From positions 4,766,501-4,830,500 of the forward strand of contig NZ_FNTF01000002.1 of assembly GCF_900105495.1 (NCBI RefSeq): 64,000 nt of DNA, read 5' to 3'. The notes under the pieces are model-generated. The model ran no database searches, was not told the origin of the DNA, and saw nothing but the letters and a program-made list of their open reading frames with translations. The stretch comes from Pseudomonas frederiksbergensis (GTDB lineage Bacteria; Pseudomonadota; Gammaproteobacteria; Pseudomonadales; Pseudomonadaceae). The stretch's first letter is position 1; each line of letters opens with the position of its first letter. A program made the position numbers and the translations under genes. Below are positions 12,093 to 42,084 of this stretch, piece by piece.

Positions 12093-12131
12093 CTTGCATC
12101 AGCCTCCATGCTAGCTGGTTAAAATTTTTCT

Positions 12132-12150: not shown

Positions 12151-12210
12151 TTCTTAATAATAGAGGACGCCATTTCTTGTGGCTTGTCAATGACGTGATA
12201 TGAGTGATCC

Positions 12211-15200
12211 ATGAGAGAGTTAACTTCGATGCAAGCCGCCTGTTGGATCGGGCGTACTGCTCATGCGGCACTAGGGAAAGTTTCAGCTCATCTGTACGCT
12301 GAGTTCGACGGCCATGCGATTGACCTGCAAAGGCTGCGCACAGCCTTGGCCCAAATCGCTTCGATGCACCCCATGCTGCGCTTGCGAATCAGCGAAGACG
12401 GCCGACAAAGCGTCGCCTCGGTCGACCAGGCACCCCAGCTCGAGGTCGACGACCTGCGCTCGATGACCGCGCAGGAGGCAACTCAGCACCTGCTGCGCAA
12501 ACGTGAACAGTGGAGCCATCAACAGCTGGACCTGCGGCACGCCAATCCTGCGCGTTTCAGTATCAGCCTGCTCGCCGACCAGCAGTTCCGTCTGCACGTA
12601 GATACCGACATGATCGGCGTCGATCCCTCGAGTTTCCGCACATTAATGGAAGACCTGGCCGACAGGTATGAAAACCACGAGCAGCCAGCGGGAGCCCGGC
12701 CGACCTTCTTCGACTGGTGGGACCGTGCGGGCACGGATGCCCTGTTCAAGGCCGCCCATGAGCGCGATCGCCACTGGTGGCGCGAGCGCCTGGGCAACAT
12801 CGCACCGGCGCCGAGCCTGCCGTTGCTCGACCAGCAACCAGCACATGCCCGCAGCGAACGCCTGAGCACCTGGCTTGACCCGCAGCAACGCCAGGCGCTG
12901 ACGCAGCTGGCACGGCAGCGCAGGATCACCCTGTCCAACCTGATGCTCGGGTTGTTTGCGGCCGTGCTCGGCGCGCACACCGACGACCCTCGGTTTCGCC
13001 TCAACGTACCGACGTTCTGGCGCCCCCCTCTGCTGGACGGCGTCGACCAGATCATTGGCGATTTCGCCAATGTGCTGATCCTCGACGTGGAGAACCAGAC
13101 CGACACCAGCCCGGCAGCGCTGAGCACTCAGCTGGCACAAAAGATGGTGAGCCTGCTCGAGCATTGCGCCTACTCCGGCGTGAACGTCATGCGCGACCTT
13201 TCTCGCCATCATGGCTCACCACAGTTGTCTCCCGTGGTCTTTACCGCCGCCCTCGATATGCCCGGTGGCGAGCTGCTTTCCGAACGCGTTCGACGTAGCT
13301 TTGGATCAATGAACTGGCTGATCTCGCAAGGTCCGCAGGTCGCGCTCGACGCACAATTTGCCTGCGCCGACGGCGGCATCCTGATCAATTGGGATATCCG
13401 CCTGGACGCCCTGCCGCAGACGTGGGTAACGCGACTGTTCGAGGCATTCCTGTCGTTGGTGACCGACATCGCCAGGAACCCCGCTACCTTCGACCAGCCA
13501 TTGCCCCGCAAGGTATCGAAGCAGCCACTGAATGCATTGCAACAAGCCTACCTCCTGGGGCGCAGCACACAGATGCCGCTCGGCGGCGTGGCCATGCAAG
13601 AGTTTCGCGAATACCGTGGCGAAATGGCGCTTGACCTGCTGCACAGCCGCCTGGCTGAAATGGTCCGGCGCCATCCCGGCCTGCGCACGCATATCGATCC
13701 GAACAAACGGGTGCAGTACGTCAGCGAAGACGTGCAGTTGAATCTGGATGAAGTCGACCTTCGCCACCTTTCGATCGAAGATGCGCTGGCCAATATCGAT
13801 GCCCGGCGGGACGACTTTGCGCATGCCCTCTTCGATCTGGACCGTGCGCCGTGGAACATCACCGTATTCAAGCTGGCCGAGGGGCAGTTGGTGGTATTCG
13901 CCCGCATGGATGCGTTGATTCTGGATGGGCGTTCGATCGCCACGTTGATGCTGGAATTGTTCGAAGGCTTAACACCGCAAGAGCCGTCGGGCGAGACAAC
14001 AGCCGCACAGGCGAATGTGGGCGAGCAGCGAAAAGTCGACGCCGCCTACTGGGCAACCAAACTGACGCCCGTCGCAGGCGCCCCACGCCTGCCCTGGCTC
14101 GTGGCCCTGGACCGGGTTGGCGCTTCGCGCTACGCACGAGAAAGCCTGCTTGTACCCAAGGAAAGCTTTGCAAAACTGTGCAAGGTCGGCGCCCGCCAAG
14201 GGCTGTTCAAGAACTCCGCACTGATGGCGGTCGTGCTCGAAGTGCTTTCGCACTGGGTCAATGAAGGTGACCTGTGCGTGGCAATTCCCGTTGCGCCACT
14301 GTCGGATGCTGCATTCGCCAACCGCTCAAGCTTTATTGCGATCAACTGGACAGCGGACGACGTGCGTTTCATCGAGCGTGCAACCCGCTTGCAGGTGGAC
14401 GTGATGAAAGGCTTGCAGCACCTGGCATTTTCCGGTGTGGACTTGGCGCGCCTGCTGTTCGACAGGTGCGGTCCGGGCCCGGTATTACCCGTGGTCATCA
14501 CCAATGGCCTGTCCTGGCCCTCGGCCCCCGCCAGCAGCGCCATGCGCCTGCACGACGGGCTGACCCAGACGCCTCAGGTAGCCATGGACATCCGCTTTTG
14601 CGCCAATGCCGAAGGGGCGTTGCTGCTCGACATCGACTATGCCCGCCAGATGCTCGCGCAACCGCTGGTCACCGACATCCTGCATACGCTGGGGCGCGCC
14701 ATCGAACGGATCGCTAGCAATAGCGATTTCGCGGTGGAAGCAGCGTCGATCATTGACACCAGCCATTACCGTTTGAACAGCCCGCCTGGCGAGGCTTTCG
14801 GTGACGGGTTCCTCGGTCAGATAGCGCGCAATCTGTTTACGCCAGGTAATCGCAAAATCGCCCTGATCTGCGCAGACCGACAACTGAGCTATAACGAACT
14901 CGGTGACGGCGTGGCCCGGATCATGGCCGCACTGCAAGCCCGCGGGCTGCGTCAGGGGCAGGTGGTCGCCATCTGCCTGCCGCGTAGCTTCGAACACACC
15001 CAACTGACGCTGGCCTGCGCACTGGCGGGGCTGATGTGGGTACCGATCGATGCCGCAGCGCCGGAAGAAAGAAGGCGCTACCTGCTCGACAATTGCCAGC
15101 CCGATCTGGTGGTGCTGAACGATGCCGAAGCCGTCGGGCACCCAACAGCCACCAGCAGCGAGCTGCTTGCAACGCCTGCGGCACTACCCGATACGCTGGC

Positions 15201-16547
15201 CGACCTGTCCATGAACGATGCCCCGGGGTACTACCTGTATACCTCCGGCACGACAGGCCAACCGAAGTGCGTCGTGCTGAACAATCGCGCCACCAGCAAC
15301 GTGATCGGCAGCACCCTGGCCAACTGGGCCGTGACCGCCAGTGACGTATTCATGTCGGTCACGCCGTTGCACCATGACATGTCGGTTTTCGATGTGTTCG
15401 GCTGCCTCACCGCTGGCGCCACACTGGTGCTGCCTGGCCCGGGCGAGGACAAGGACGCAGTGCGCTGGAACCAGCTGATCGCCCAGCATCGGGTCAGCTT
15501 GTGGTGCTCCGTGCCGGCCATGCTGGAAATGCTCCTCGCCTGCCGCGCGGGCAACGCATTGCAGAGCTTGCGCTTGATTGCCCAAGGGGGGACTACCTCA
15601 AACCGACGGTGATTGCCCAATTGCGCGACCTGCTGCCTGGCGCGCGGTTGATCTCGTTGGGTGGCCCGACCGAAACCACTATCTGGAGCATCTGGCACGA
15701 AATCGGCGAGGAGGATCGTGGGCAGATCCCTTATGGCCGACCGCTGCCTGGCAACAGCTATTACGTCCTGGATAACCAGGGCCGTCATTGCCCAGCGGGC
15801 GTGGTCGGGCGCATTCACACCGCCGGCGTCAATCTGGCCCTGGGCTACTTGCAAGGTAGCGAGCGAGTCCAAACCGACTTCATCACCGTCAACGACCTAC
15901 AAGGTTTGCCGGTCCGCGCTTTCCGAACCGGTGACTGCGGGCGTTATCGCACCGATGGCACCTTGCTCTTCGACAGCCGGGTCAATGGCTACGTGAAAGT
16001 ACGTGGGGTCCGGGTTTCGCTGCCGGATATCGAGATGACATTGAGCACGCATCGCTCGCTCCGACAGGTGCTGGTGGTTGATTTCGGTGACCCGCGCCAA
16101 GGCGAGGTAAGCCTTGGTGCGCTCTACGTCAGCGACCCCGCTGGCGCAGCACCGAGCGCAGCCGAGCTGCGCAACTACGCTCGCTTGCACCTTGCGCAAT
16201 CGCATGTACCCACGCGCTTCATCAGCGTTGCCGAGCTGCCGCTTTCGCAAAATGGCAAGGTCGACCGACAGCGGGCACGGGCGCTGCTCTGCACTCAGCC
16301 CGCGGGCGACGCCCCTGCCCTGCCAACGGCGCACGACAAGGTGCTGGACATTTACCTGACGGTGCTGGGGCGGACCGATAACGCTGCCCCAGCGGACTTC
16401 ATTAGCCTGGGTCTGCGCCCACAGCATTTGAAGGCCATATCGGCGCGGATGCAGGAGCAGTTCGCCGTGACGCTATCGCCTGGACAGCTGTTGCGTTGCC
16501 GCAACTCCGAAGAGGTGGCGCAACTGCTTACGGCAGCAGGCGCTTGA
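12211..16547 (+). CDS. pmsD: NRPS Cy-Cy-A with degenerate carrier domain, broken by a frameshift (PmsD-like)
   Basis: About 1,445 residues when a -1 shift is made in the G run at 15586-15591; otherwise translation stops at 15612. The order is two heterocyclisation domains and an adenylation domain. The first Cy has the DxxxxD motif as DMIGVD (about residue 133), the second as DALILD (about residue 568). The adenylation core ([33 protein letters not shown]) starts near residue 880. The final 70 residues resemble a carrier domain, but the site reads [10 protein letters not shown], so the serine of LGGHS is missing. It should join salicylate to a cyclised Thr or Cys, using the carrier of the PmsG-like protein. 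The ATG at 12211 lacks a strong ribosome site. Confidence 0.8.
15586..15591 (+). other. G6 run at the NRPS frameshift
   Basis: Frame 0 reads LIAQGG then TTSNRR and stop. The frame one base back reads [12 protein letters not shown], which restores the adenylation-domain consensus. One more G in this run would make the gene whole. Confidence 0.85.
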
Positions 16548-16629
16548 GCCGATTGTTTTTTGCCATGAACCGAGCGGGCGCCGACGTGACGCCCGCTTTC
16601 TGACAGCAGGATGTAAGGAGAAGTACTGG

Positions 16630-17949
16630 ATGAAGGATGCACCCATTGTAGATATCGCCGGTGTCGGCGTTGGCCCGTTCAACCTGGGCCTCGCCGCACT
16701 GCTCGCCACCCATTCCGAGGTGAGCGGCATCTTTCTTGAACGCAAGACCGAGTTTCGCTGGCACGAAGGGCTGCTATTGCCAGGCACTACCTTGCAGGTG
16801 CCGTTCCTGGCCGACCTGGTGACCATGGCCGACCCCACTCACCCACTGAGCTACCTGAATTACCTGCACCAGCACGATCGCCTTTACCAGTTTTATTACT
16901 ACGACAACTTCCAGGTGCCGCGCCGGGAATACGACCACTATTGCCGATGGGCGTCTCAGCAATTGGCTGCCTGCCACTTCGGCGAGGAAGTCTGCGATGT
17001 GCACTATGACGCCGATGCCGGCCGTTTCCTGATCGAAAGCCAGTCTGTGTCCGGCTTCAAACGGCATTACTACAGCCGGCATCTGTCGGTGGGCATCGGT
17101 ACCTCGCCGGTCCTGCCACATTGGGCACAAGTGAAGAGCTCGGCCCCAATCATGCATTCGGCGGAGTTTGGCAAGCGCCAGGCGCAGCTGGCGCAGTGCC
17201 AACAAGTGACGGTCATCGGTTCCGGGCAAAGCGCTGCCGAATGTGTGCTGGCGCTGTTCAACGAGTTGACCCCGGAACGGGTCGCGGCTGGCGCTTCCAT
17301 CCGCTGGATCACCCGTGCTCCCGGGTTCCATCCGATGGAGTATTCCAAGCTCGGCCAGGAGTGCTTTACCCCGTCCTACATGGAGTACTTCCACAGTATC
17401 CCCCGCGAGCGCCGCCGCGATATCGTCGCTGGGCAAGGGTTGCTGTACAAGGGCATCAGCTTCTCGACCATCGGCGACCTCTACGACCTGATCTACGAGC
17501 GCTCGATCGGCGGCGCAAACCCCGGGCTGACGCTCCTGTCCAATTGCGAGGTCGAGCGTGTCGAGGCTAACGCCGGCAAGCTGAAAGTGATGTATCGCCA
17601 TCGCGAACTGGGCCAGGCCAGCAGCTTCGAGGCGGATGCGCTTGTTGCAGCGACCGGGTATGCACATGCCTGGCCACAATGGTTCGAGCGCCTCAAGGGC
17701 AGCGTGCTGGCGACCGACGAGCACGGCGACTGCATCGTCGAGGAAGACTTCACCGCACGGCGCTGCGACAACGGTCAAGGGCGCATCTTCGTGCAGAACG
17801 CGGAGATCTTCCAGCATGGGGTCGGCTCGCCCGACCTGGGCATCGCCGCCATTCGCAATGCGACGATAATCAACCAACTGCTGGGCCGATCGCACTACCG
17901 CCTGCCCAAGCGCTCGGCATTCCAGCGTTACGGAATGCACGAGGAATAA
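16630..17949 (+). CDS. Flavin-dependent amine N-monooxygenase (histamine N-hydroxylase-like)
   Basis: 439 residues of the lysine/ornithine N-hydroxylase family. The FAD motif is GVGVGPFNLGLA at the N-terminus, the NADPH motif TVIGSGQSAAEC near residue 195 and the family's ATGYAHA segment near residue 340. In acinetobactin and anguibactin pathways a relative (BasC, AngU) hydroxylates histamine, and the pmsA gene here supplies histamine. N-hydroxyhistamine is therefore the likely product, which PmsG would capture. An AAGGAGAAG site precedes the ATG, and the gene follows the NRPS by 82 bases on the same strand. Confidence 0.88.
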   Translation: MKDAPIVDIAGVGVGPFNLGLAALLATHSEVSGIFLERKTEFRWHEGLLLPGTTLQVPFLADLVTMADPTHPLSYLNYLHQHDRLYQFYYYDNFQVPRREYDHYCRWASQQLAACHFGEEVCDVHYDADAGRFLIESQSVSGFKRHYYSRHLSVGIGTSPVLPHWAQVKSSAPIMHSAEFGKRQAQLAQCQQVTVIGSGQSAAECVLALFNELTPERVAAGASIRWITRAPGFHPMEYSKLGQECFTPSYMEYFHSIPRERRRDIVAGQGLLYKGISFSTIGDLYDLIYERSIGGANPGLTLLSNCEVERVEANAGKLKVMYRHRELGQASSFEADALVAATGYAHAWPQWFERLKGSVLATDEHGDCIVEEDFTARRCDNGQGRIFVQNAEIFQHGVGSPDLGIAAIRNATIINQLLGRSHYRLPKRSAFQRYGMHEE

Positions 17950-17972
17950 GCTCTTCTCCCACGCAAAAAAAA

Positions 17973-17995
17973 TCCGGGGCGCCTGGCGCCCCGGA
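17973..17995 (-). terminator. Terminator between convergent siderophore genes
   Basis: GC-rich inverted repeat TCCGGGGCGCC/GGCGCCCCGGA. On the minus strand it is followed by a run of eight T, so it mainly ends the PmsG transcript. Confidence 0.85.
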
Positions 17996-18026
17996 AACTA
18001 TCGTGCAGCGGCTACCCGATCACGCT

Positions 18027-20192
18027 TCAGGCCCGCACATGCTCAACCTTCACCGCAGCACCTTCCGGGCTCACGAACAGTGCGAACACCTGCTCGATGG
18101 CAGCGCTGACGCGTGCCATCTGCTCGGCGCTGTAACGGTCCGAGCGGTAAGTCACCACCAGCCGCAACGAGCGCTGGCCATCGAGCATGTTTTCCATGAT
18201 TTCGAACTGGATACCGAACATTGACTGGTTCTTGTCCGGGTCAATGTGCCGATAACGGATCGACCTCGCGTCAGGTGTCGGCAACGCACCGTTGAGCGCG
18301 TTGTTGGCGTGGATCTGGACGTAGACATCGAACAACAGGCCGTCCGCGGGCGTCATGCCCAAGGCTTGCTGGATGTGCTCCATGGGCACATCGGCATAGG
18401 CCATCGACTCATTGATCAGGCGGCTGGTGTTTTCGATCAGTGCGCCAACGGTCTGCCGGGAATCGAACTGCACACGGTGCGCCACCATCGTGGTGAAGTA
18501 GCCGACCGTTTCATAATACGCAGGGTCGGTACGCCCGGAAGCAGACGTGCCGATGACCAGGTCCTGCAATCCCCCGACTTTGTGCAAGGCCAACGCAATC
18601 GCGCTGTACACCACACCGAACAGCGACGAATTGTTTTGTCGGGCGAAACTGTACAGGTGGTCGATCAGGGCTTGGTCCGGCTTGATCTCGAACCACTCGG
18701 CCCTGGTTGAAATCTCGCCCACCGCTGCGCGGGAGGCGCCATCGACAGCCGGCAGGGCCAGCCCGAGCGTGGCAGGGCGAAGCATGTCGGTCCAGTAGGC
18801 CAGATGCTGCTGATTCATCCCCTTGGCCTGCTCATGCACCGAATATTCGTGGAACGAAGGTGCTGGAGCTTCCCATACAGGCGCCTTGCCGACAGCACGG
18901 GCCAGGTAGGCCTTGCCCAGCTCTTCCATCATCACGTTGAGCGACCATTCATCGATCGCCATGTGGTGCACCAGCAGCGACAAGGTCTGCCGCTGACTCT
19001 GCGGATCGCGCAAGAACCGCACGCGCATAGGCAGTTCACGGGACAGGTCGAATTGGTAGCTTGCTTCGCTGGCCAGTGAGGCCCCTTCACTCTCACCGCT
19101 GGACCAGAACCACTTGAAGCGGCCCAACTGACCAGGCGCAATCCTTTGCTGATAAGCCTCGCCCGCCTCGAAATGGAAGGTGGTACGCAGGCTGGCATGA
19201 CGCTCGATCAAGTCGGTAAAAGCCTGCTCGAACAAACGCTCATCGACCTCGTCGAGGAAATCCAGGGCAAACGGCAAGTTGAAAATGGTACCGAATTCAA
19301 AGGCGGCATAAGCGCGGCCGAGCGAAGCCTGGGCCAGGGCGAACGGCGCTTTCTGCACCTCGTGAGCCTGCTCGGACAAGGCACATGCACCCGCCGTCCC
19401 AATGACCTGAGCCCGCGAAGCCAGGGCCGCAGCCGAGGGTGTGCTGAAAAAGTCGTTGAACTGGACTTCAATGCCGTGACTGCTCAACAGCTTGCCAATG
19501 ATGCGGGTGGCCAACAGCGAGTGGCCGCCAAAATCGAAGAAGTCGTCATCCTGCGCCATGGTCGGCTCGCCCAGGGCACTGCGAAACTCTTCGAGGATGA
19601 CCGTGACCACCTTACCGGCATCAGCGGGCGGGGCCACAGCGACCGTGTCCGCTGCGTCGGCGCCGGCTGTGCCGTGACGCTGCAACCAAGGCAAATGCGG
19701 AGCCCCCACGGAGCGCCCGGCGTAAGCATCCAGGGTCATTCGGTACAGGTCATCTTCGCGGCAGGTCTGGTCGAGTACTTGATGCAGTACAAAGGCCAGG
19801 ATTACATCGGTTTTTATCTGCACGATCAGTGCAGCCAAAGGCGGCTGGTTTTCAGCGTCCCACGGCTGGGACTGGTGCGCCAACAACAGTTCTTGTGCCT
19901 GACTATCGTCATCGGCCTGCAACATCGCAACGCAAGCCCGCCAATCATCTTCACGCACTTTGAGCAGCTCGCCCTCGTCGTTGAATCGATAGCGGACGTT
20001 GAGCTCCGGTATGTGGGTAATGACTGCCTTGAGCGCCGCCTCGAGCCTGGCCGGATCCACCTCATCGGTGAATCGCCATGCGCTAAAGTGCTTGAGGGCT
20101 TGTTCAGGGTATTGCTGCTGCAAGAGCCACGCATGCTCTTCAAAATCGCTGACAGATAGCTGAGTCGCTGTATCTGGATTGCGTTCCATCAT
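18027..20192 (-). CDS. pmsG: NRPS with carrier and condensation domains (PmsG/AngM-like)
   Basis: 721 residues. An N-terminal stretch of about 200 residues resembles half a condensation domain, with a worn motif LHQVLDQ in place of HHxxxDG. A complete carrier domain follows (DDDFFDFGGHSLLATRI, serine intact, near residue 235), then a condensation domain with LVHHMAIDEWS. The layout matches AngM and BasB. The carrier should hold the amino acid activated by PmsD, and the condensation domain should release the chain onto N-hydroxyhistamine. The frame is open to 20321, but the ATGATG at 20192 with GGGAA upstream is preferred. It is divergent from the sigma factor gene. Confidence 0.85.
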   Translation of the reverse strand: MMERNPDTATQLSVSDFEEHAWLLQQQYPEQALKHFSAWRFTDEVDPARLEAALKAVITHIPELNVRYRFNDEGELLKVREDDWRACVAMLQADDDSQAQELLLAHQSQPWDAENQPPLAALIVQIKTDVILAFVLHQVLDQTCREDDLYRMTLDAYAGRSVGAPHLPWLQRHGTAGADAADTVAVAPPADAGKVVTVILEEFRSALGEPTMAQDDDFFDFGGHSLLATRIIGKLLSSHGIEVQFNDFFSTPSAAALASRAQVIGTAGACALSEQAHEVQKAPFALAQASLGRAYAAFEFGTIFNLPFALDFLDEVDERLFEQAFTDLIERHASLRTTFHFEAGEAYQQRIAPGQLGRFKWFWSSGESEGASLASEASYQFDLSRELPMRVRFLRDPQSQRQTLSLLVHHMAIDEWSLNVMMEELGKAYLARAVGKAPVWEAPAPSFHEYSVHEQAKGMNQQHLAYWTDMLRPATLGLALPAVDGASRAAVGEISTRAEWFEIKPDQALIDHLYSFARQNNSSLFGVVYSAIALALHKVGGLQDLVIGTSASGRTDPAYYETVGYFTTMVAHRVQFDSRQTVGALIENTSRLINESMAYADVPMEHIQQALGMTPADGLLFDVYVQIHANNALNGALPTPDARSIRYRHIDPDKNQSMFGIQFEIMENMLDGQRSLRLVVTYRSDRYSAEQMARVSAAIEQVFALFVSPEGAAVKVEHVRA

Positions 20193-32092: not shown

Positions 32093-32305
32093 TCATCTTG
32101 CCCGCATCGAACTTGTGAATTCCGGGAGGGCTGGTTGTAACATCACGTCCGGGCGATAAGCGTCATATTCGCCGCACAATCGCGGATCAAAGGTCACGGG
32201 ATTGTCATGAAGTGAAAAGGCGTTGTCGCCAAATGTAATGTCCACCGCTCCCCCGTCTATAAGCTGCTCCTCAAGATCTGCGTGGCAAGCCCTGCATTTT
32301 CCCAA
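32093..32305 (-). CDS. Possible small hypothetical protein
   Basis: A 70-codon reading frame opposite to its neighbours, fitting the 284-base gap. Its composition (FGDNAFSLHDN, FDPRLCGEYDAYR, and a CRACH pair of cysteines) looks protein-like. However, no ribosome site precedes the ATG and I recognise no family. Base composition here is less GC-rich than in the flanking genes. It may be a remnant. Confidence 0.25.
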   Translation of the reverse strand: MGKCRACHADLEEQLIDGGAVDITFGDNAFSLHDNPVTFDPRLCGEYDAYRPDVMLQPALPEFTSSMRAR

Positions 32306-32372
32306 TGCACGACTTGCTCGTAGCCCTATAACCGCAAAGTGCCCGTCTTTTGGGCCTTACCGGAGTGGCGCA

Positions 32373-34049
32373 ATGAACAAGAAAAATAAAGATTTGTCCC
32401 AGCTAGCTGCAACGCACACGTTGAACCTGAATCCGGCGGTCAGTCCTCGCGCGCGCGACCTGCTCGGCACCGCCCGCATGGTCCTTCGACAGGTGTTGAA
32501 GCAGCCGGTGCATAGCGCGCGGCACATGGCTGCATTCGGTATCGAGCTGAAAAATGTCTTGCTCAACCGCTCGCCGCTCAAGCCGGCGGCGGGCGACAAG
32601 CGCTTCGACGAATTGGCCTGGCAGCGCAACCCGCTCTACCGTCGCTACCTGAAGACTTATCTGGCCTGGTGCCAGGAGATGAACGACTGGATCAGCACCA
32701 GCAACCTCAGCGAACAGGACGCTCAGCGTGGTCAGTTTGTCATCGGCCTGCTGACCGATGCCATGGCGCCGACCAACACCCTGGCCAACCCGGTAGCGCT
32801 CAAACGTTTCTTTGAAACCGGTGGAAAGAGCATCCTCGATGGTTTCTCGCAGCTGACCCGGGATCTGATCAAAAACGGCGGCATGCCCAGCCAGGTGGAC
32901 AAGACGGCGTTCGAGGTGGGCCACAATCTGGGCATCACTGAAGGTGCAGTGGTGTTTCGCAATGACGTGCTGGAGTTGATCCAGTACAAGCCCCGTACCG
33001 CGCAGGTGCAAGTGCGTCCGTTGTTGGTGGTACCGCCGCAAATCAACAAGTTCTACCTGTTTGACCTGACGCCGGAGAAGAGCCTGATCCGTTTTCTCCT
33101 CGACAGCGGTATCCAGACCTTCGCGATCAGTTGGCGCAATCCGGGCAAGGCACAGCGTGAATGGGGTTTGTCCAGCTACGTGGAAGCCTTGAAGGAAGCA
33201 ATCGACGCGGTGCTTGCGATAACCGGCAGCGCCGACCTGAACACCTTCGGTGCCTGTTCCGGGGGCTGCACCCTGTCCTCGCTGCTGGGTCACTACGCCG
33301 CCCTGGACGAGAACAAGATCAATGCCTTTACCCTGGGTGTCAGTATGCTGGACATACAACCCGACACCCAGCTCGGGCTGTTCGCCGACGAAAAGACCCT
33401 CAAGGCAGCCAAGCGTCGTTCCTGGAAAGCGGGCGTGCTGGAGGGCCGCGAGCTGGCCAAGGTCTTCGCCTGGATGCGCCCTAATGACCTCATCTGGAGT
33501 TACTGGATCAACAACTACCTGCTCGGCAACGAGCCGCCGGCCTTCGATGTCCTCTACTGGAACAACGACACCACCAACCTGCCCGCCACGCTGCACGGCG
33601 AATTCATCGATATGTACCAGAGCAATCCGTTCGCCCGCGCCGGTGCGCTGGAAGTTTGCGGCACATCGATAGACCTCGGCCAGGTCACCAGTGACTTCTA
33701 CTGCATCGCCGGCCTGAGCGACCACATCACCCCGTGGGACGCCTGCTACCGCTCCATGCATCTGTTTGGCGGCCAGGGCGAGTTCGTGGTGTCCAACAGC
33801 GGGCATATCCAGAGCATCCTCAACCCGCCGGGCAACCCCAAGGCACGCTTCATGACCGGCAGTCATCTGCCGGACGAGGCTCAGGAATGGATGGACGCCG
33901 CCAGTCAACAGGCCGGCTCCTGGTGGCCCCACTGGCTGGAATGGCTGCAGACACGCTCGGGTGATCACAAAAAAGCTCCGCGTAGACTGGGCAACCGAGC
34001 CTATGCAGCTGCCGAGGCTGCGCCGGGAACCTACGTGCACATGCGCTGA
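32373..34049 (+). CDS. Class II polyhydroxyalkanoate synthase (orphan PhaC)
   Basis: 558 residues, the size of medium-chain-length PHA synthases. The lipase-like box GACSGGCTLSSL near residue 296 carries the catalytic cysteine. The partner histidine is in VVSNSGHIQSIL and an aspartate in IAGLSDHITPW. It should polymerise 3-hydroxyacyl-CoA into storage polyester. None of the usual phaZ, phaC2, phaD, phaF or phaI neighbours is present, so this is a separate copy. The ATG at 32373 follows GGAG; the frame is open to 32223 but that part is not PhaC-like. Confidence 0.9.
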   Translation: MNKKNKDLSQLAATHTLNLNPAVSPRARDLLGTARMVLRQVLKQPVHSARHMAAFGIELKNVLLNRSPLKPAAGDKRFDELAWQRNPLYRRYLKTYLAWCQEMNDWISTSNLSEQDAQRGQFVIGLLTDAMAPTNTLANPVALKRFFETGGKSILDGFSQLTRDLIKNGGMPSQVDKTAFEVGHNLGITEGAVVFRNDVLELIQYKPRTAQVQVRPLLVVPPQINKFYLFDLTPEKSLIRFLLDSGIQTFAISWRNPGKAQREWGLSSYVEALKEAIDAVLAITGSADLNTFGACSGGCTLSSLLGHYAALDENKINAFTLGVSMLDIQPDTQLGLFADEKTLKAAKRRSWKAGVLEGRELAKVFAWMRPNDLIWSYWINNYLLGNEPPAFDVLYWNNDTTNLPATLHGEFIDMYQSNPFARAGALEVCGTSIDLGQVTSDFYCIAGLSDHITPWDACYRSMHLFGGQGEFVVSNSGHIQSILNPPGNPKARFMTGSHLPDEAQEWMDAASQQAGSWWPHWLEWLQTRSGDHKKAPRRLGNRAYAAAEAAPGTYVHMR

Positions 34050-34217: not shown

Positions 34218-35117
34218 TTAGGATAACTGTGGCCCCCAAGGCGCCGTATTCGCCTTCAAAAACTTCATCAGCGCTCCCGCCGCTGGCGACAGGCTTCGCC
34301 CTTTACGGGTGAGCATGCCAATCTGGCGTTCGACCTTTGGCTCAGTCAAGGGCAGAAACGCAAGCTTGTTGTTCTCCTGTGGAAACGCCAGATACGGCAA
34401 GGTGCTGATCCCGACGCCCTCCTCCAGCATGGCGATAAGGGAAATCATGTTGGAGATAAATAACCGACTGTGCTCCAACAAGCATTCGGCATCGGTGCCT
34501 TCCAAAAGTCGTGAGGTGCCGTTACGGATCATGGGCACGCCTTGCAGCTGGGACCAATGCAACGCGCCTTCCACGTGCACTAACGGGTGGTCGGCGCGGC
34601 ACACCACACCCACCTGATCGTTGAGGATCGGTGAAAACTCGATCTGCTCGTCGGCCAGCCATACGCTGCTGATGGCGAAGTCCACCTGCCCTTGGGCCAA
34701 CAGTTGCTGGACGCTGTCAGCGGTGCCGTCCTGGATGCTGATCTGCACGTTCGGGTGCTCGACCACGAAGCGCGCCAAGGGACCGGGCAACAAACGGCTG
34801 GCCACCGAAGGCACGGTGGCGATGCTGACCTGGCCGATCTCATGCTGAACCAACAGAGTGACCTCGCGGGCGATGCGGTCGTGCTGATCGATCAGGCCGC
34901 GGAACAGCGGCAGGCAATGTTCGCCGAAAGGTGTCAGTTCTACCCGACCGCCGCCCTTTTCGATCAGTGCCTGGCCCAGCTTCTGCTCCAACTCGCGCAC
35001 AGCCAGGGACATTGCCGGCTGTGTGCGGTAGGCCTGACGGGCGGCAGCATGGAAACTCTTGAGCTCGGCCACCAAGAGAAAGTAGCGCAACTGGGCGATT
35101 TTCAGTTCGGGCAGCAT
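34218..35117 (-). CDS. LysR-family transcriptional regulator
   Basis: 299 residues. The helix-turn-helix is at residues 5-65 (LRYFLLVAELKSFHAAARQAY, QPAMSLAVRELEQKLG) and the two-lobed effector domain follows (GQVSIATVPSVASRLLPGPL, with later segments YLAFPQENN). It is divergent from the aldehyde dehydrogenase gene, 92 bases away, the classic layout in which a LysR protein activates the neighbouring operon in response to a pathway compound. It most likely controls the six genes from 35210 to 42084. Confidence 0.93.
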   Translation of the reverse strand: MLPELKIAQLRYFLLVAELKSFHAAARQAYRTQPAMSLAVRELEQKLGQALIEKGGGRVELTPFGEHCLPLFRGLIDQHDRIAREVTLLVQHEIGQVSIATVPSVASRLLPGPLARFVVEHPNVQISIQDGTADSVQQLLAQGQVDFAISSVWLADEQIEFSPILNDQVGVVCRADHPLVHVEGALHWSQLQGVPMIRNGTSRLLEGTDAECLLEHSRLFISNMISLIAMLEEGVGISTLPYLAFPQENNKLAFLPLTEPKVERQIGMLTRKGRSLSPAAGALMKFLKANTAPWGPQLS

Positions 35118-35209
35118 GGTTAGTAATCCTTATCAAATCATATTTATTATTAATTTTTATTTGCCCCATATTGCTCGCAAGATGAGAGCCACGCAAATGG
35201 AGGCTCCTC
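35118..35209. promoter_or_regulatory. LysR-aldehyde dehydrogenase divergent promoter
   Basis: A 92-base AT-rich gap (for example CATATTTATTATTAATTTTT) in otherwise GC-rich DNA. It must hold both promoters and the LysR operator. I cannot assign the exact operator. Confidence 0.5.
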
Positions 35210-36652
35210 ATGTCACTCACGCCCTACAAAAACTACATCGATGGACAGTGGTGCAAAGGTCACACCACGCTGAGCAACCACAATCCATCAGACAGCCACG
35301 ACTTGATCGGTGAATACCACCAGGCCAGCGTCGAACAGACCCACCTGGCCATCCAGGCCGCCCGCAGCGCGCAGCCGCAGTGGGCGGCCACTGGCCTGGA
35401 AGCTCGACAGCTGATACTGATGGCCATCGGCGACGAACTGATCGCCCGCAAGGAAGAACTCGGCCAACTGCTCTCCCGTGAAGAAGGCAAGCCACTGGCC
35501 GAGGGTATCGGCGAAGTTAATCGCAGCGGCCAGTTCTTCCACTACTACGCCGCCGAGGTGTTGCGCCAGATGGGCGAGACCGCCGCGTCCGTACGCCCCG
35601 GTATCGATATCGAAGTACACCGCGAGCCGGTAGGTGTGGTGGGCATCATCACCCCTTGGAATTTCCCCATGGCCACCGCTGCCTGGAAGATCGCCCCGGC
35701 TTTGGCTTTCGGTAATGCGGTGGTGTTCAAACCAGCCAACCTGGTGCCAGCGAGTGCCTGGGCATTGACCGAGATTATCAGTCGCCAGGCCCTGCCCCAT
35801 GGCACGTTCAACCTGGTCATGGGCAGCGGCGCAAGCGTCGGCGAGACGCTGGTGCAGTCAGCTGACATCGACGCCTTGACCTTTACCGGTTCGCTGGCTA
35901 CCGGTCGTCGTGTCGCGGTCGCCACAGCCGGCAATCTGGTGCGTTGCCAACTGGAGATGGGCAGCAAGAATGCCCTGGTGGTCATGGACGATGCCGACCT
36001 CGATGTGGCCGTGGAATGCGCCCTGAACGGTGCGTTCTTTGGCACCGGACAAAAATGCACGGCGTCCTCGCGGCTGATTGTTTGCGAGGGTATCCACGAC
36101 CGCTTTGTCGAAGCGCTGCGCGGGCGCATGCGCCAGCTCAAGGTCGGCCATGCCCTGGAAGCCGGCGTGCAGATCGGACCGGTCGCCGAGGCACGGCAAC
36201 TGGAACAGAACCTGGAATACCTGCGCCTGGCCCAGGCCGAAGGCGCCACACTGGTCGAAGGCGGCGAGCGCCTGCATCTGGACACCGACGGCTTCTTCAT
36301 GCGTCCGGCGTTGTTCATCCACAGTCGCAATGACATGCGCATCAACCGCGAAGAAGTGTTCGGGCCGATCGCCTGCGTCATCCGTGTACGCGATTTCGAG
36401 GAAGCCCTGGCGACCCTCAATGACACCGAGTACGGCCTCACTGCCGGGATCATCACCCAATCGCTGCGCCATGCCAGCGAATTCAAGCGCCGCGCCCAAA
36501 CGGGCTGCGTGATGGTCAATCTGCCCACCGCCGGCACCGATTACCACGTTCCGTTCGGCGGCCGTAAAGCCTCAAGCTTCGGGCCACGTGAACAAGGGCA
36601 ATACGCCCGCGACTTTTACACCGTGGTCAAGACCACTTACGTCCGGCCTTGA
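35210..36652 (+). CDS. NAD(P)-dependent aldehyde dehydrogenase
   Basis: 480 residues, a full-length family member: IITPWNFPMATAAWK, FTGSLATGRRVA, catalytic glutamate in LEMGSKNALVV and catalytic cysteine in GTGQKCTASS. It is closest in style to succinate- or ketoglutarate-semialdehyde dehydrogenases. The ATG follows GGAGG. As first gene of the LysR-linked operon it should oxidise an aldehyde made during breakdown of the compound brought in by the BCCT transporter. The aldehyde itself cannot be identified here. Confidence 0.9.
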   Translation: MSLTPYKNYIDGQWCKGHTTLSNHNPSDSHDLIGEYHQASVEQTHLAIQAARSAQPQWAATGLEARQLILMAIGDELIARKEELGQLLSREEGKPLAEGIGEVNRSGQFFHYYAAEVLRQMGETAASVRPGIDIEVHREPVGVVGIITPWNFPMATAAWKIAPALAFGNAVVFKPANLVPASAWALTEIISRQALPHGTFNLVMGSGASVGETLVQSADIDALTFTGSLATGRRVAVATAGNLVRCQLEMGSKNALVVMDDADLDVAVECALNGAFFGTGQKCTASSRLIVCEGIHDRFVEALRGRMRQLKVGHALEAGVQIGPVAEARQLEQNLEYLRLAQAEGATLVEGGERLHLDTDGFFMRPALFIHSRNDMRINREEVFGPIACVIRVRDFEEALATLNDTEYGLTAGIITQSLRHASEFKRRAQTGCVMVNLPTAGTDYHVPFGGRKASSFGPREQGQYARDFYTVVKTTYVRP

Positions 36653-36665
36653 TGGAGAACCCGCC

Positions 36666-37652
36666 ATGCACAACCTTCTAATGATCGACGGCCTGCAATA
36701 CTCCAACTGGAGCCCGGAAATATTCCAGCAGATGCAGGCCGGCGGCTTGAGCGCAGTACATGCCACCATCGCCTACCACGAGAACGCGCGTGAAACCCTC
36801 TCCCGCCTGGGCGAATGGAACCGTCGCTTCGAAACCTGGCCCGAGCTGATCCGCCCGGTGCGCTCGGCCAGCGATATCCGCCTGGCCCACGAGGAAGGTC
36901 GAGTGGGTGTGTTCTTCGGTTTCCAGAACTGCTCGCCGATCGAGGACGACATTGACCTGGTGGAAATCTTTCGCCAACTGGGCGTATTCGTCATGCAGCT
37001 CACCTACAACAACCAAAGCCTGCTCGCCAGTGGTTGCTATGAACATGCAGACAACGGCATCAGCCGCTTCGGCCGCCAGGTCATCGCCGAGATGAACCGG
37101 GTCGGCATGCTGATCGACATGTCACACAGTGCTGAGCGCAGCACCCTGGAGGCCATCGAATTGTCGACCCGGCCGGTGATCATCTCCCACGCCAACCCAT
37201 CGAGCTTCCATGCGGCCAAGCGCAACAAGTCCGATGCCGTATTGCGCGGCATCGCCGAATCCGGCGGGTTGCTGGGCTTCAGCACCTATCCCTTTCACCT
37301 CAAGGGTGCTTCGGCCTGCCGCCTGGAGAGCTTCTGCGACATGGTTGCCCGTACCGCCGACCTGATGGGCGTCGATCATATCGGCATCGGCACCGACCTG
37401 TGCCAGTCGCAACCGTTGTCAGTACTCGAATGGATGCGCAACGGGCGCTGGAGCAAAGAGAAGGACTATGGCGAAGGTTCCAAGGACAACGCCAACTGGC
37501 CGACTCCGCTGCAATGGTTCCGCGATAGCCGCGACTTCCCCAACATCGCCAAGGGCCTGCGTGCCCGCGGATTTGCCGAAGACGATGTAAGCAAGATTAT
37601 GGGAATGAATTGGTTGCGCCTGCTGGAAACCGCCACCACGGCGCAGACCTGA
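36666..37652 (+). CDS. M19 (renal dipeptidase) family protein with altered metal site
   Basis: 328 residues of the membrane-dipeptidase fold. Two metal histidines are present (LIDMSHSAERS and IISHANPSS), as is the late aspartate (IGIGTDLCQ). The first metal pair HxD is replaced: the segment reads IDGLQYSNW instead of the usual DGHxD form. The bridging glutamate of GxEG is glutamine-asparagine (FGFQNCS). The related dipeptidase-like proteins I know of in Pseudomonas betaine-breakdown loci may show similar changes. It may hydrolyse something other than a dipeptide. The ATG lies 13 bases after the aldehyde dehydrogenase stop. Confidence 0.85.
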   Translation: MHNLLMIDGLQYSNWSPEIFQQMQAGGLSAVHATIAYHENARETLSRLGEWNRRFETWPELIRPVRSASDIRLAHEEGRVGVFFGFQNCSPIEDDIDLVEIFRQLGVFVMQLTYNNQSLLASGCYEHADNGISRFGRQVIAEMNRVGMLIDMSHSAERSTLEAIELSTRPVIISHANPSSFHAAKRNKSDAVLRGIAESGGLLGFSTYPFHLKGASACRLESFCDMVARTADLMGVDHIGIGTDLCQSQPLSVLEWMRNGRWSKEKDYGEGSKDNANWPTPLQWFRDSRDFPNIAKGLRARGFAEDDVSKIMGMNWLRLLETATTAQT

Positions 37653-37710
37653 ACCATCCCTGCACGGACAGCATGAACAATAAAAACAATCGCAGGTTCC
37701 GGAGGCTTTC

Positions 37711-39261
37711 ATGAAAAATCCAAGCACCCTACAGGCTGACGGCGAGGCCGTGAGCCTGCCAATCGCCCGAGACATCGACTGGCCCCTGTTCCTGATCAGT
37801 GGCGGGTTCTTAGGGGCATTCCTAATCGCGGCACTGGTCGATATCGACGCGGTGTCGGCACTGGTCAACACCCTATTCGCCTGGTCGACCAAGGCCTTCG
37901 GCCTGTATTGGCAGGTGCTGATGTTCTCGACCTTCGTGGTCAGCCTGGGCATCGGTTTTTCGAAATGCGGGCGCGTACGCCTTGGAGGTATCGAGCAGCG
38001 TCCGGACATCAGCACCTTCAACTGGATTGCCGTGATTATGTGCGCATTGCTCGCCGGCGGCGGCGCTTTCTGGGCGGCCGCTGAACCGCTGATGCACTTT
38101 GCCAGCCCACCACCGTTCTTTGCCGGCGTGCAGCCGCACACTGAAGCGGCGGCTACTGCCGCATTGGCGCAGGCCTTCATACACTGGGGTTTCCTGGCTT
38201 GGGCGGTGCTCGGCAGTTTGCTGGCGATCGTGCTGATGCACTTGCACTACGACAAGGGCTTGCCACTGGCACCGCGAACCCTGCTTTACCCGCTGTTTGG
38301 TGAACGCGCCTTGAAGGGTCCGATTGGCATCTTCGCTGACGCCACCTCAATCATCGCCGTGGTCGCCGGCACCATCGGTCCGATCGGATTCCTCGGCCTG
38401 CAGATCAGCAGCGCGATGCACGCGGCGTGGGGCGTGCCCAATGGGATCGTAACCCAGTCGATCACCATCGTCCTGGTCACCCTGATGTACACCACGTCAT
38501 GCCTGGTCGGGCTCAAGGGCATCCGCTTCGTCAGCGAGATCAATGTCTGGCTGATGCTGGGGCTGGCCGTGTTCATGGTGGTGTTCGGGCCGACGCTGTT
38601 TATCCTCGGCGGCTTCCCGTCGGCCTTTGCCTTGCACGTGGAACAGTTCATCCCGCTGACGATGTTCCGTGCCGATCCCAAGTGGCTGGATTGGTGGACA
38701 GTGTTCTACTGGGGCTGGTTCATCGGTTATGCACCCATGGTCGCGCTATACGTCGCACGGATCTCACGGGGTCGCACTATTCGCGAGATCATCATGACGT
38801 TATCGATCATCGCCCCGCTGGTGACCATGTTCTGGTTCACGGTAGTCGGCGGCACCGGCATCGGCCTGGAGCTGCAGTCACCCGCAATTGTGACGGCCCA
38901 TGGCACCCAGCCTGAAGATTTGCTGTTGGGCGTGACTCAGAACCTGCCGCTCGGTGGCCTGATCAGCGCACTGTTCCTGTTTCTGAGCTTCATATCGGTG
39001 GCGACCAACGGCGATGCCATGGCCTTTACCGTGGCGCTGGCGATGTCCAGCACCGACAAGCCGAAGAAGTGGCTATGTGGTTTCTGGGCCATCGGCATGG
39101 GTCTCGCGGCGGTGGTGCTGATCACCATCGGTGCCGGCGGCGTGACAGCCCTACAGTCCTTCATTGTCATCACCGCGGTGCCAGTGTCACTGGTGATCCT
39201 GCCGGCTCTGTGGGATTCAGTACGCATTGCCCGGCACATGGCCCGCGAGCAAGGTCTTTGA
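37711..39261 (+). CDS. BCCT-family betaine/carnitine/choline-type transporter
   Basis: 516 residues with about twelve membrane segments. The family's tryptophan-rich signature is present in the central part (WWTVFYWGWFIGYAPMV, near residue 330), and GGAFWAAAEPLMHFA lies earlier. BCCT proteins take up quaternary ammonium or sulfonium compounds such as glycine betaine, carnitine, choline or DMSP. It has no long C-terminal osmosensing tail, which suits a catabolic uptake role over osmoprotection. The ATG follows GGAGG. It defines the likely substrate class of the operon. Confidence 0.92.
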   Translation: MKNPSTLQADGEAVSLPIARDIDWPLFLISGGFLGAFLIAALVDIDAVSALVNTLFAWSTKAFGLYWQVLMFSTFVVSLGIGFSKCGRVRLGGIEQRPDISTFNWIAVIMCALLAGGGAFWAAAEPLMHFASPPPFFAGVQPHTEAAATAALAQAFIHWGFLAWAVLGSLLAIVLMHLHYDKGLPLAPRTLLYPLFGERALKGPIGIFADATSIIAVVAGTIGPIGFLGLQISSAMHAAWGVPNGIVTQSITIVLVTLMYTTSCLVGLKGIRFVSEINVWLMLGLAVFMVVFGPTLFILGGFPSAFALHVEQFIPLTMFRADPKWLDWWTVFYWGWFIGYAPMVALYVARISRGRTIREIIMTLSIIAPLVTMFWFTVVGGTGIGLELQSPAIVTAHGTQPEDLLLGVTQNLPLGGLISALFLFLSFISVATNGDAMAFTVALAMSSTDKPKKWLCGFWAIGMGLAAVVLITIGAGGVTALQSFIVITAVPVSLVILPALWDSVRIARHMAREQGL

Positions 39262-39287
39262 ACATGATGCATCCAGGAACAATAACA

Positions 39288-40982
39288 ATGTCCGACTCCC
39301 CGTTTGCAGCGCCGACGCTGCGCCCCGCCAGCCAGGTCATGGACCTGGCTCGGCTGGGCAGCCACTTCCAGAGCCCATTGAGCTTCGTGCGCAGCAGCAT
39401 GCGCCGGATGATGAACCAGCAGTGGCGGATTCAGCGTAGCCGGTTCGATCTGGACGACGAAGGCTTCGGCACCGTCATCTACCGTATAGACACGCCGACC
39501 GCGCACTACCATTGCGTGATCTTATCGGCCTACCTGCCGCCGGAGAAACGCAGCGACCGGGTGATCGCCGATCAATGGGACGTCTGTTTCGTACTGGTAG
39601 CCGGAGACGTCGACGAGGCGCAACTGCGCGATCTGCAACACAACGTCCCGTTACAGGAAGCCGGCCGCTTCGATGCGCGGGTGCTGGTACTGTCCCGCGC
39701 CAACCGCAGCCTGCGCAATTTCGAACGCTTCCTCGTGGCACTGGCTGAAGGCAATCAGCCGGACCCACGCCAGTTGGCCGACGTCGGCTACCTTTACCGC
39801 ACCACCGCCGTCTACGGCAATGGCAAGTTCGGCATCGCCGACTTCGGTTGCCTGCAGGACAACGCTGACTTCAATCAGCCGTTCAGCGCGCAGATGTTCA
39901 CGGTGTACCTGTTGCGCCATTTCAGCATCGAACAGATCGAGCACATGGCAAAGGTGCGCAATCCACAGCGCGCAACGAAACTCGACGTGAATCTGCAGCG
40001 TTATCTGGGCGTCGGCAACGCTACCGGGCTAGGCATGGCACCCTTCCTGCTCAATCATCCGCAACTGATCGACCAGTGGATCCTGGCGCGGGAAACCGCT
40101 TTGGCCCGGGTCCTGACACAACCGGCGGACCCGGTCCGCTTGCAGCGTTTGCATGAACTCCTGCATCGCGCACACCTGCACGTGCAGCAAACCCAGACGG
40201 AAGACTTTCGCCAGCACGAGCAAGACCGACAGACCCTGGCTGACCTCACCACATTGGCCACATGGCTCAACTGCCAGCCCTGCAGCGACGATCTCTGGTC
40301 ACGCTTGCTGGCTTGGAGCGAAGCGCACGCGAGCATCGGCTGCCAAGAGCTGTTGGTCAGCCTTTTGCTGGAACTGTATCCCGAGCACGTGACGCCGCTG
40401 GCTGAGCAGATGGGCGTCGTCGAAGGCTGGCGCCTGGATGCGCAAATGCCCTTGGCGCAGCTATGCGAGCTTATTGAACACCACTATGCCTGGGCCCTGG
40501 CCTACGACTTCAGCAACGCCGATGCCGAACATTTCTTCTGGTATCGCTCTGCCGAAAAGGAAGAGCCCCGCCTGGGCATGCGTACTGAAGAACCGGGCGC
40601 CGACAAGGAGATGCAACTGGGCATCGCACGCAACATCCAGCGCTGCCATTGCGCACTGCTCGACCACCTGGGCGCACATCCCGATGAGTTGACCGCGCAC
40701 TTTCTGATTGCCCATCCGGCGTTCAAGGGCACGATCCGGCGCTTGCAGGGCATGGCTGAGTGCGCCTATGGCGAGATCCGCGCCAACCTGCTGGCCCGCG
40801 ACATGCTGCCCATCCATTTGTTGCGCTGCAAACTGGCTTTCTTCGGCGCGGGCAAATTCGACCCCAAGTCCAGCCGATGGGTGCGCATTACCCTGTTCCA
40901 GGGCGCACCGCTGGTGGGCGAAATTGGTCAGCCGTTCGCCGACGACTGGAACTTTGCGGTCATGCCCAACGGAGATCAGTGA
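39288..40982 (+). CDS. Uncharacterised 564-residue protein of the BCCT/DUF3726 operon
   Basis: I do not recognise this family. It has no signal peptide or membrane segment, so it is probably cytoplasmic. The N-terminal 350 residues mix strands and helices, with conserved-looking stretches such as IADFGCLQDNADFN and YHCVILSAYLPPEKR. The C-terminal part is helical and contains HFFWYRSAEKEEPRLGMR, rich in charged and aromatic residues. The ATG at 39288 follows CAGGAAC; an earlier ATG at 39264 would add eight residues. It lies two bases before the DUF3726 gene, so the two products probably work together. An enzymatic role is a guess. Confidence 0.8.
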   Translation: MSDSPFAAPTLRPASQVMDLARLGSHFQSPLSFVRSSMRRMMNQQWRIQRSRFDLDDEGFGTVIYRIDTPTAHYHCVILSAYLPPEKRSDRVIADQWDVCFVLVAGDVDEAQLRDLQHNVPLQEAGRFDARVLVLSRANRSLRNFERFLVALAEGNQPDPRQLADVGYLYRTTAVYGNGKFGIADFGCLQDNADFNQPFSAQMFTVYLLRHFSIEQIEHMAKVRNPQRATKLDVNLQRYLGVGNATGLGMAPFLLNHPQLIDQWILARETALARVLTQPADPVRLQRLHELLHRAHLHVQQTQTEDFRQHEQDRQTLADLTTLATWLNCQPCSDDLWSRLLAWSEAHASIGCQELLVSLLLELYPEHVTPLAEQMGVVEGWRLDAQMPLAQLCELIEHHYAWALAYDFSNADAEHFFWYRSAEKEEPRLGMRTEEPGADKEMQLGIARNIQRCHCALLDHLGAHPDELTAHFLIAHPAFKGTIRRLQGMAECAYGEIRANLLARDMLPIHLLRCKLAFFGAGKFDPKSSRWVRITLFQGAPLVGEIGQPFADDWNFAVMPNGDQ

Positions 40983-40984
40983 CA

Positions 40985-41677
40985 ATGCGCGTATCCCTCA
41001 ACGAACTTCAGGTGATGTGCCGCAAGGCCTTCGAAGGCATGGGCTTCGCCGCCGGCGACTGCGAGGATGCCGCCGACATGGTTGGCTGGCTGCAACTGCA
41101 AGGGCTGGACGGCGTCGGTGAGCTGGAAAAAGCCTTGGACTATCTGCAGAGCGAAGCGGATCAACCCTTTGCCTTGCGCTACGAAGACAGCGCCCTGCTG
41201 GTCATCGATGCCAAGGGCCAGAGCGTGCTGCGCTGCGCGGCGACCGCGGTGGAGCTGGCGCTGAGCAAAGCGCTGAGCAGCGGCCAGGCCGTGTTGCGGA
41301 TTCATCATTGCCACAACCGACTGCTACTGCTCGGTTACCTGGGCCAGGCCGCAGAGCAAGGAATGGACATCCAGGCGCGCTGGGGCGATGCCCGCCAGGT
41401 TCGCATCGCCTCCTTCCGCGCCGGCAACAGCCGCCCTGAATTGCACGTCGACGAGCGACCTTGCGCCAGGGATGTGGAGCAAAGCATCACCGTAACCTTC
41501 AGTCGCCCGGCAGTGCCTGCGCGTCATCAGGTCTGCGCGCAAGCTGCACTTACCCAGGGCCTTACCGTCGGCGAGGCCACCTGGCAACGGCTTAAGCAGT
41601 TGGCCGAACAGATACTGGTCGAAAGTACCGAAGCCTCGCGCCGCCATGGCGCAGGTGGCGGCAGCGATGCCGATTGA
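40985..41677 (+). CDS. DUF3726 domain protein
   Basis: 230 residues. The sequence pattern (VSLNELQVMCRKAFEGMGFA ... DAADMVGWLQLQGLDG) fits the DUF3726 family, whose function is unknown. The first 60 residues are helical and the rest is mixed alpha/beta, without signal peptide or membrane segment. The ATG follows the preceding stop by two bases with GGAG in the overlap region, which means translational coupling to the 564-residue protein. The pairing suggests a two-subunit enzyme or an enzyme and its helper. Confidence 0.75.
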   Translation: MRVSLNELQVMCRKAFEGMGFAAGDCEDAADMVGWLQLQGLDGVGELEKALDYLQSEADQPFALRYEDSALLVIDAKGQSVLRCAATAVELALSKALSSGQAVLRIHHCHNRLLLLGYLGQAAEQGMDIQARWGDARQVRIASFRAGNSRPELHVDERPCARDVEQSITVTFSRPAVPARHQVCAQAALTQGLTVGEATWQRLKQLAEQILVESTEASRRHGAGGGSDAD

Positions 41678-41709
41678 AAACCCGTCCCTTCATATTCAGG
41701 AACATCCCA

Positions 41710-42084
41710 ATGAAATATGCGATCAAGACCGACCTATTCGCGTCTAAAGCCCCGCTTGAATGGGCAGTCGTCGGCAACGGCACCCTCTACACCGCCCAGA
41801 TCCCCATCGACGCCAGAGGCCAAGTGGTTGCCGGCGGCATTGAGGCCCAGGCGCATCAGACCCTTGCCAACCTGCGCCATACCCTGGAGGCGGCGGGCAC
41901 CTCGCTGGATGCGGTGACTCAGGTGTTGATCTACGTCACCGACCGCAGCTACCTGGCCACCGTCAACGCAGCCTATGCGCAGTATTTCCAGGCGCCCTAC
42001 CCCAATCGCGCGGCCATTGTGGTGGCGGGGCTGGCACGCGAGGAGATGCTGGTTGAGATGGTGGTGTACGCCTGTTTGCAGTGA
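41710..42084 (+). CDS. RidA-family enamine/imine deaminase
   Basis: 124 residues, the family length. It contains the typical LYTAQIPIDARGQVVAGG N-terminal strands, QVLIYVTDRSYLATVN and the active-site arginine in APYPNRAAIVVAGL. RidA proteins hydrolyse reactive 2-aminoacrylate-like enamines to keto acids and ammonia. It closes the BCCT operon, so an enamine or imine intermediate is expected in the pathway. The ATG at 41710 is preferred over an in-frame ATG at 41674 because it begins the family's N-terminus. Confidence 0.9.
   Translation: MKYAIKTDLFASKAPLEWAVVGNGTLYTAQIPIDARGQVVAGGIEAQAHQTLANLRHTLEAAGTSLDAVTQVLIYVTDRSYLATVNAAYAQYFQAPYPNRAAIVVAGLAREEMLVEMVVYACLQ

Follow-up and report, generated by a model that had tools for sequence, protein, structure and literature searches.

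Homarine (N-methylpicolinate) is an osmolyte common in the sea, and an operon for its catabolism was reportedly described by Ferrer-Gonzalez et al. in 2026 (Nat Microbiol 11:1531); homABCDER is presumably its name. Another N-methyl-pyridinium carboxylate, trigonelline, is degraded in Acinetobacter baylyi through tgnABCDE, with a flavin monooxygenase pair (TgnAB) and succinate semialdehyde as the product. PMC12817926 describes homarine as a phytoplankton osmolyte rapidly drawn down by Ruegeria pomeroyi. N-methylglutamate dehydrogenase (Mgd) is named as involved in homarine catabolism in PMC13390433, which cites a 2026 paper (its ref. 55) and presents tmaR-mgdABCD of R. pomeroyi, where mgdABCD adjoins an AraC-type regulator. 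DpkA is characterized in PMC6110843 as an imine reductase/N-methyl-amino-acid dehydrogenase which makes N-methyl amino acids. Here, these systems are compared with an operon located at positions 34218-42084 of a 64,000-nucleotide stretch of the Pseudomonas frederiksbergensis genome (the whole stretch is called the window; the source genome has 6.39 Mb in two contigs). It is rather probable that this operon represents the gamma- and betaproteobacterial version of the catabolism of homarine, or of a very close N-methyl-pyridinium carboxylate.

The operon includes a LysR-type regulator gene on the minus strand (34218-35117; PF00126 and PF03466) and six genes on the plus strand, divergent from it, encoding an aldehyde dehydrogenase (ALDH, 35210-36652; PF00171), an M19 amidohydrolase (36666-37652; PF01244), a BCCT transporter (37711-39261; PF02028), a 564-residue protein (39288-40982), a DUF3726 protein (40985-41677; PF12525) and a RidA-family imine/enamine deaminase (41707-42084; PF01042). 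The 564-residue and the DUF3726 proteins are hereafter called C and D. The open reading frames (ORFs) and Pfam matches bear out the six packed genes of one direction and the divergent LysR gene reported in the first-pass annotation, as well as its two bases between the middle genes (the C stop codon ends at 40982 and the D ATG is at 40985). The genes that it listed are all there; its title left out M19, the most constant neighbor of the pair. For RidA, the ATG at 41707 is the preferred start, an alternative in-frame TTG at 41674 being less likely. As also claimed, neither a Rieske oxygenase nor a flavin demethylase was found by Pfam among the seven genes.

In the proposed pathway, the BCCT transporter would import the zwitterion, and C with its partner D would open the ring next to the nitrogen (C5-C6), yielding N-formyl-N-methyl-2,3-dehydroglutamate 5-semialdehyde. 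Since such an opening would produce an N-formyl group together with a C5 aldehyde, an ALDH and an N-acyl-dehydroamino-acid hydrolase would be needed; the former would oxidize the aldehyde and the M19 hydrolase would strip the formyl group as formate. The remaining N-methyl enamine/imine of 2-oxoglutarate is a compound of the kind that RidA and DpkA both act on. In the window's version, RidA would hydrolyze it to 2-oxoglutarate and methylamine, a step that we propose only tentatively, while in the alphaproteobacterial version a DpkA-like reductase of the Ldh_2 family would convert it to N-methylglutamate, to be oxidized to glutamate by Mgd. Homarine has six carbons besides the N-methyl group, and N-methylglutamate keeps five. 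Ring opening is assigned to C and D by elimination, as nothing else in the operon could do this step. The sequences themselves establish the genes, their conserved linkage, the C-D association, the lost catalytic parts of D, the RidA/reductase exclusion in the loci examined and the Mgd linkage in two Phaeobacter-type loci; the substrate, all reactions and the roles of C and D are inferred, in a scheme that would give every gene a role. With the trigonelline route it would share the opening of an N-methyl-pyridinium carboxylate beside the nitrogen, an N-formyl intermediate, an ALDH and an amide hydrolysis; in contrast, the window's operon has no gene for a flavin monooxygenase pair, and the products differ.

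The operon is a conserved unit. A search that finds close relatives only gave 31 Pseudomonas loci, near-copies of one another, in all of which D and RidA adjoin C; LysR, ALDH, M19 and BCCT were above the thresholds in 30 of them, the exception (L028) beginning 1.8 kb upstream of C. Because the gene grouping is kept across the 31 loci, it goes beyond chance. The window's flanking genes (aminotransferase, PhaC, SRAP and a 111-residue ORF) are not conserved with the operon and were seen in none of these loci, five of which are shorter than 16 kb. At E ≤ 0.001, at least 7999 of the 8000 candidates scored were homologs of C. Among 398 phylum-sampled genomes, 30 matched C, giving 33 full-length places in 29 genomes after exclusion of G050 with its three 72-residue fragments. 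None of the 10 other genomes of the same genus that were listed had C, so its distribution is patchy even within Pseudomonas. DUF3726 was found at 29 places in 27 of the 398 genomes, each of these places no more than about 100 bases away from one of C. Of the four C places without a DUF3726 match, three (L123, L128 and L130) have an ORF of 172-179 residues overlapping the end of C, and the fourth (L134) has a D-like ORF with 37% identity to a D-like protein of Sinorhizobium meliloti.

The neighbors of C were counted by identity thresholds up to 9 kb from it, weaker relatives staying uncounted. In the 32 sampled loci, M19 was present in 30, D in 29 by similarity (in the other three by position), ALDH and LysR in 17 each, BCCT in 14, RidA in eight, the reductase (LdhE) in six and a betaine ABC transporter in one. 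Thus, the constant partner of the pair is M19, rather than the BCCT and RidA of the first-pass annotation; the pair being widespread without BCCT or RidA, named there as an argument against the idea, is partly the case. These counts point to M19-C-D as the core module, of which the ALDH-LysR-transporter set is one use. The 17 ALDH-bearing loci all have M19 and D; LysR is present in 16, a betaine-type transporter (BCCT or ABC) in 13, RidA in eight and LdhE in four. The hosts include Pseudomonas, rhizobia and Caballeronia. In Alphaproteobacteria, C matched in 40 of 289 genomes, among them at least one fragment (G421, 78 residues) and one match full of stop codons (G461). Three of the matching genomes have a size of 1.2-1.4 Mb, with a guanine-plus-cytosine (GC) content of 0.31-0.36 at their loci, which suggests streamlined marine bacteria of the SAR11 type; in two of them M19-C-D is accompanied by genes for ALDH, a betaine-type ABC transporter and an Ldh_2 protein, and the third has M19-C-D alone.

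The annotated alphaproteobacterial plasmid loci have the order LysR / ALDH / M19 / (BCCT) / C / D / Ldh_2, with BCCT or betaine ABC genes. The Ldh_2 gene is also present, though unannotated, in the locus of Phaeobacter inhibens; the exceptions are Sulfitobacter W027, with no such gene at the locus, and Shinella, with the Ldh gene on the opposite strand. Without the transporter, the core of this type consists of ALDH, M19, C, D and Ldh_2 plus LysR, equal in gene number to the presumed homABCDER. Its further likenesses to the published homarine operon are the Mgd linkage in two Phaeobacter-type loci, described below, and its occurrence in Phaeobacter and relatives and in the small low-GC genomes. 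The window's operon differs in having RidA in place of the Ldh_2 reductase and in a host genome with no Mgd-clade gene. In gamma- and betaproteobacterial loci, RidA is located at either end of the operon.

RidA and the reductase excluded each other in the 75 loci examined: RidA occurred in 42 (a count in which the 31 Pseudomonas near-copies weigh heavily), the reductase in 15, neither in 18 and both in none, when proteins with 62-93% identity to the window's RidA and 36-100% identity to the reductase of L097 were counted. In a tree of 52 C proteins, with seven of the 31 Pseudomonas loci kept, the RidA group and the reductase group are each confined to one side of a branch with 100/97 support. 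On these comparisons, RidA marks one lineage, and alphaproteobacterial operons carry a DpkA-like Ldh_2 reductase instead, or neither. DpkA is the best solved-structure match of the alphaproteobacterial reductase (4.2e-56, the next being 4e-36), and its fold is common to D; in contrast, it is absent from the window's operon.

The operon of P. inhibens adjoins an AraC-type regulator (PF00165) and a four-subunit sarcosine-oxidase-like set. The soxA-like alpha subunit of this set falls into a seven-row clade with 100/100 support, in which four copies lie 2.6-12.2 kb from a gmaS-type synthetase scoring over the cut-off, and this proximity identifies the clade as Mgd. The regulator beside the set repeats the mgdABCD arrangement given in PMC13390433. 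A Mgd-clade gene, to which N-methylglutamate would be delivered, was found beside the operon in two Phaeobacter-type loci only (L096 and G115). The set of G115 lies about 7 kb from C, and as no gmaS-type synthetase over the cut-off was found in its genome, its N-methylglutamate should come from elsewhere. Of the 10 gammaproteobacterial genomes with the operon, eight gave no soxA/mgdC-like match at E ≤ 1e-60, and G000 and G046 have copies that fall outside the Mgd clade. RidA was seen in nine of the ten (the contig of G098 ends first), and none of these nine had a Mgd-clade gene. The window genome is one without it, its soxA/mgdC-like copy sitting with soxB and glyA.

RidA proteins are known for damage control, and RidA of this operon might likewise only protect pyridoxal phosphate (PLP) enzymes from leaked enamine, the real last step being performed by a DpkA-like reductase encoded elsewhere in the genome and yielding N-methylglutamate. 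The window genome does have three other Ldh_2 proteins, the best of them 36% identical to the alphaproteobacterial reductase. Against this, 42 of the 75 loci carry RidA within the operon and no reductase locus (15 in all) does so, and the nine RidA-bearing gammaproteobacterial genomes have no Mgd-clade gene to use N-methylglutamate. We regard this explanation as possible, if doubtful; it would change the last step alone and leave the homarine assignment intact. The RidA protein itself keeps the catalytic Arg of the PNR motif and the Glu of the LVE motif in 43 of 43 rows each and has the PF01042 domain, its score being below the NCBIfam TIGR00004 cut-off (77 vs. 106 bits).

Several observations weigh against the homarine pathway as drawn. 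The Mgd linkage is limited to two loci: G135 carries its Mgd-clade gene on a different contig from the operon and has no gmaS-type synthetase over the cut-off, and G083 and G319 have the operon and no member of the seven-row clade, the gmaS of G319 lying 15 kb from a soxA-like copy of another clade. In L176, a 1.6-Mb genome, the soxA-like gene beside C forms a long branch outside the Mgd clade. RidA and the reductase are both missing from five of the 17 sampled loci with ALDH, and in Sulfitobacter W027 nothing closer than a distant Rid protein was found. Moreover, no gmaS-type synthetase over the cut-off was found in the window genome, so methylamine would have to leave or find another use. 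The M19 protein has no bridging Glu, and hydrolysis by it is therefore not assured. C has no recognizable cofactor or metal site, and an oxidative ring opening by it is therefore hypothetical.

The same chemistry might serve another N-methyl heterocyclic betaine (trigonelline, stachydrine, hydroxyproline betaine or pipecolate betaine). C and D would then open the ring of this compound, and general methylamine metabolism would account for the Mgd linkage seen in Phaeobacter. Homarine is less likely to be encountered by hosts such as Pseudomonas, rhizobia and Caballeronia, several of them of soil or plant origin, and rhizobial loci pair operon genes with betaine/proline ABC transporters. The ALDH, furthermore, resembles alpha-ketoglutarate semialdehyde dehydrogenase, an enzyme serving hydroxyproline routes too. 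However, the operon includes no demethylase, hydroxyproline dehydrogenase or deaminase of such routes, and nothing in the trigonelline route of Acinetobacter would require a DpkA-like reductase or Mgd, which makes another betaine an unlikely substrate.

The nearest model of the ALDH is 2,5-dioxovalerate (alpha-ketoglutarate semialdehyde) dehydrogenase. Its scores remained below the NCBIfam equivalog cut-offs (493.6 vs. 750 bits for NF052305 and 472.8 vs. 770 bits for NF042993), and the substrate of the best model, a C5 2-oxo-acid semialdehyde, matches the pathway proposed. The BCCT transporter is recognized by PF02028 with 468 bits; it matches five NCBIfam BCCT models and scores under the cut-off of each. 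The Peptidase_M19 domain of the putative deformylase is clear (292 bits vs. a cut-off of 26), and its closest solved structure is the amidohydrolase 2i5g (4.8e-69), with DGL and GFQN motifs common to both. In M19 dipeptidases the metal ligands include a bridging Glu and an N-terminal HxD, and the renal enzymes of this family are dehydropeptidases. The window's protein has an incomplete two-metal ligand set: Q87 occupies in 68 of 68 rows the position where gliJ has Glu, and the N-terminal motif is D-x-L-Q, with L and Q in all 68 rows. H175 and D244 are retained in 68 of 68 rows and H154 in 67, so the protein represents an M19 subfamily with altered metal ligands.

C matched no family in the Pfam or NCBIfam libraries, and its confident structural model (predicted local distance difference test, pLDDT, 86.9; predicted template modeling score, pTM, 0.88) gave no PDB fold match at E ≤ 0.001. 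Positions conserved at ≥97% over 85 rows include many Arg, 29 charged residues, a single His (H257) and no Cys, and hence no metal site can be named. D is, as judged from its alignment, a degenerate protein of the Ldh_2 fold: its 230 residues, combining PF12525 with an N-terminal part of Ldh_2, align over the whole Ldh_2 chain of about 340 residues, and the SHG motif, catalytic in Ldh_2 dehydrogenases, and the nucleotide-binding part are missing, with a five-residue gap across SHG in each of the 16 D rows listed. DUF3726 thus does have relatives. As proposed in the first-pass annotation, neither protein of the middle pair has a described function in the libraries searched, and the LysR-linked catabolic operon of betaine type is supported. 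The association of C and D reaches a fusion in Mesorhizobium (L098, 11971-14415; one protein of 814 residues). It is improbable that C and D serve as chaperone or scaffold, not as ring-opening enzyme, in an operon for taking up and turning over an acyclic amino acid that is quaternary or N-methylated. In favor of this are the lack of an obvious active site in C, the lost catalytic motif of D and the occurrence of M19-C-D sets next to unrelated YcjX-type genes, with neither ALDH nor RidA; against it, no operon gene would then start the pathway ahead of ALDH, and C retains its 29 charged residues.

A distant paralogous operon, in which C-like, D-like and M19 genes follow one another, is located on plasmid p_2 of S. 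meliloti RCAM1750 (L100, a 1.65-Mb replicon; 8947-19665). Like the window's operon, it includes RidA and a semialdehyde dehydrogenase, here both downstream of these genes; it differs in an IclR regulator, an ABC transporter of another type, a class III aminotransferase and a C-like protein only about 28% identical to that of Phaeobacter. It probably acts on another substrate, suggesting that the M19-C-D module is reused. M19-C-D or C-D sets without ALDH or RidA occur in four alphaproteobacterial loci of family f55 (L122, L126, L127 and L130); Pfam confirms a YcjX-type (DUF463) gene next to the sets in L122 and L127, and L126 and L130 have an ORF of equal size there. An MTTB-type methyltransferase gene adjoins the M19-C-D set of L133 (12036-13583), and one is annotated a few genes away in L098. 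On a plasmid of Pseudomonas sp. MPC6 (L091; PLSDB type conjugative), the operon is split into two divergent halves among other betaine-type genes.

The 92-base region between LysR and ALDH (35118-35209) is the likely operator/promoter. In the alignment of the window with 30 Pseudomonas loci it includes an A/T-rich core, TTATTAATTTTTATTTGC, with ≥85% conservation per column; no sigma-70-like site was found in this region. Immediately upstream of the operon, positions 32223-34049 of the window encode a class V aminotransferase followed by a PhaC-type polyhydroxyalkanoate synthase.

Overall, homarine, an aromatic N-methyl betaine, is the probable substrate, and judging by the title of the 2026 paper its pathway has already appeared in print. 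For the whole operon, the first-pass proposal of a candidate new catabolic pathway therefore probably goes too far, since the pathway is probably known. What stays as candidate novelty is the RidA version, which may release 2-oxoglutarate plus methylamine, and the mechanism of C and D; no description of either was found in the literature searched, which did not cover the 2026 homarine paper. A bolder combination is speculative: C, which matches no solved fold, and D, a dehydrogenase-fold partner without its own active site, might form a new kind of ring-opening enzyme; the gamma- and betaproteobacterial operon might be a separate homarine branch in which RidA performs a committed catabolic step with 2-oxoglutarate and methylamine as products, so that N-methylglutamate and Mgd are bypassed; and the M19-C-D module might be reused for other substrates. 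The mutually exclusive exchange of RidA for an imine reductase offers a direct genetic test of the role of RidA, with nitrogen either leaving as methylamine or being kept as N-methylglutamate. If the homarine assignment is true, C and D, present from Pseudomonas to small low-GC alphaproteobacterial genomes, would start the breakdown of homarine.

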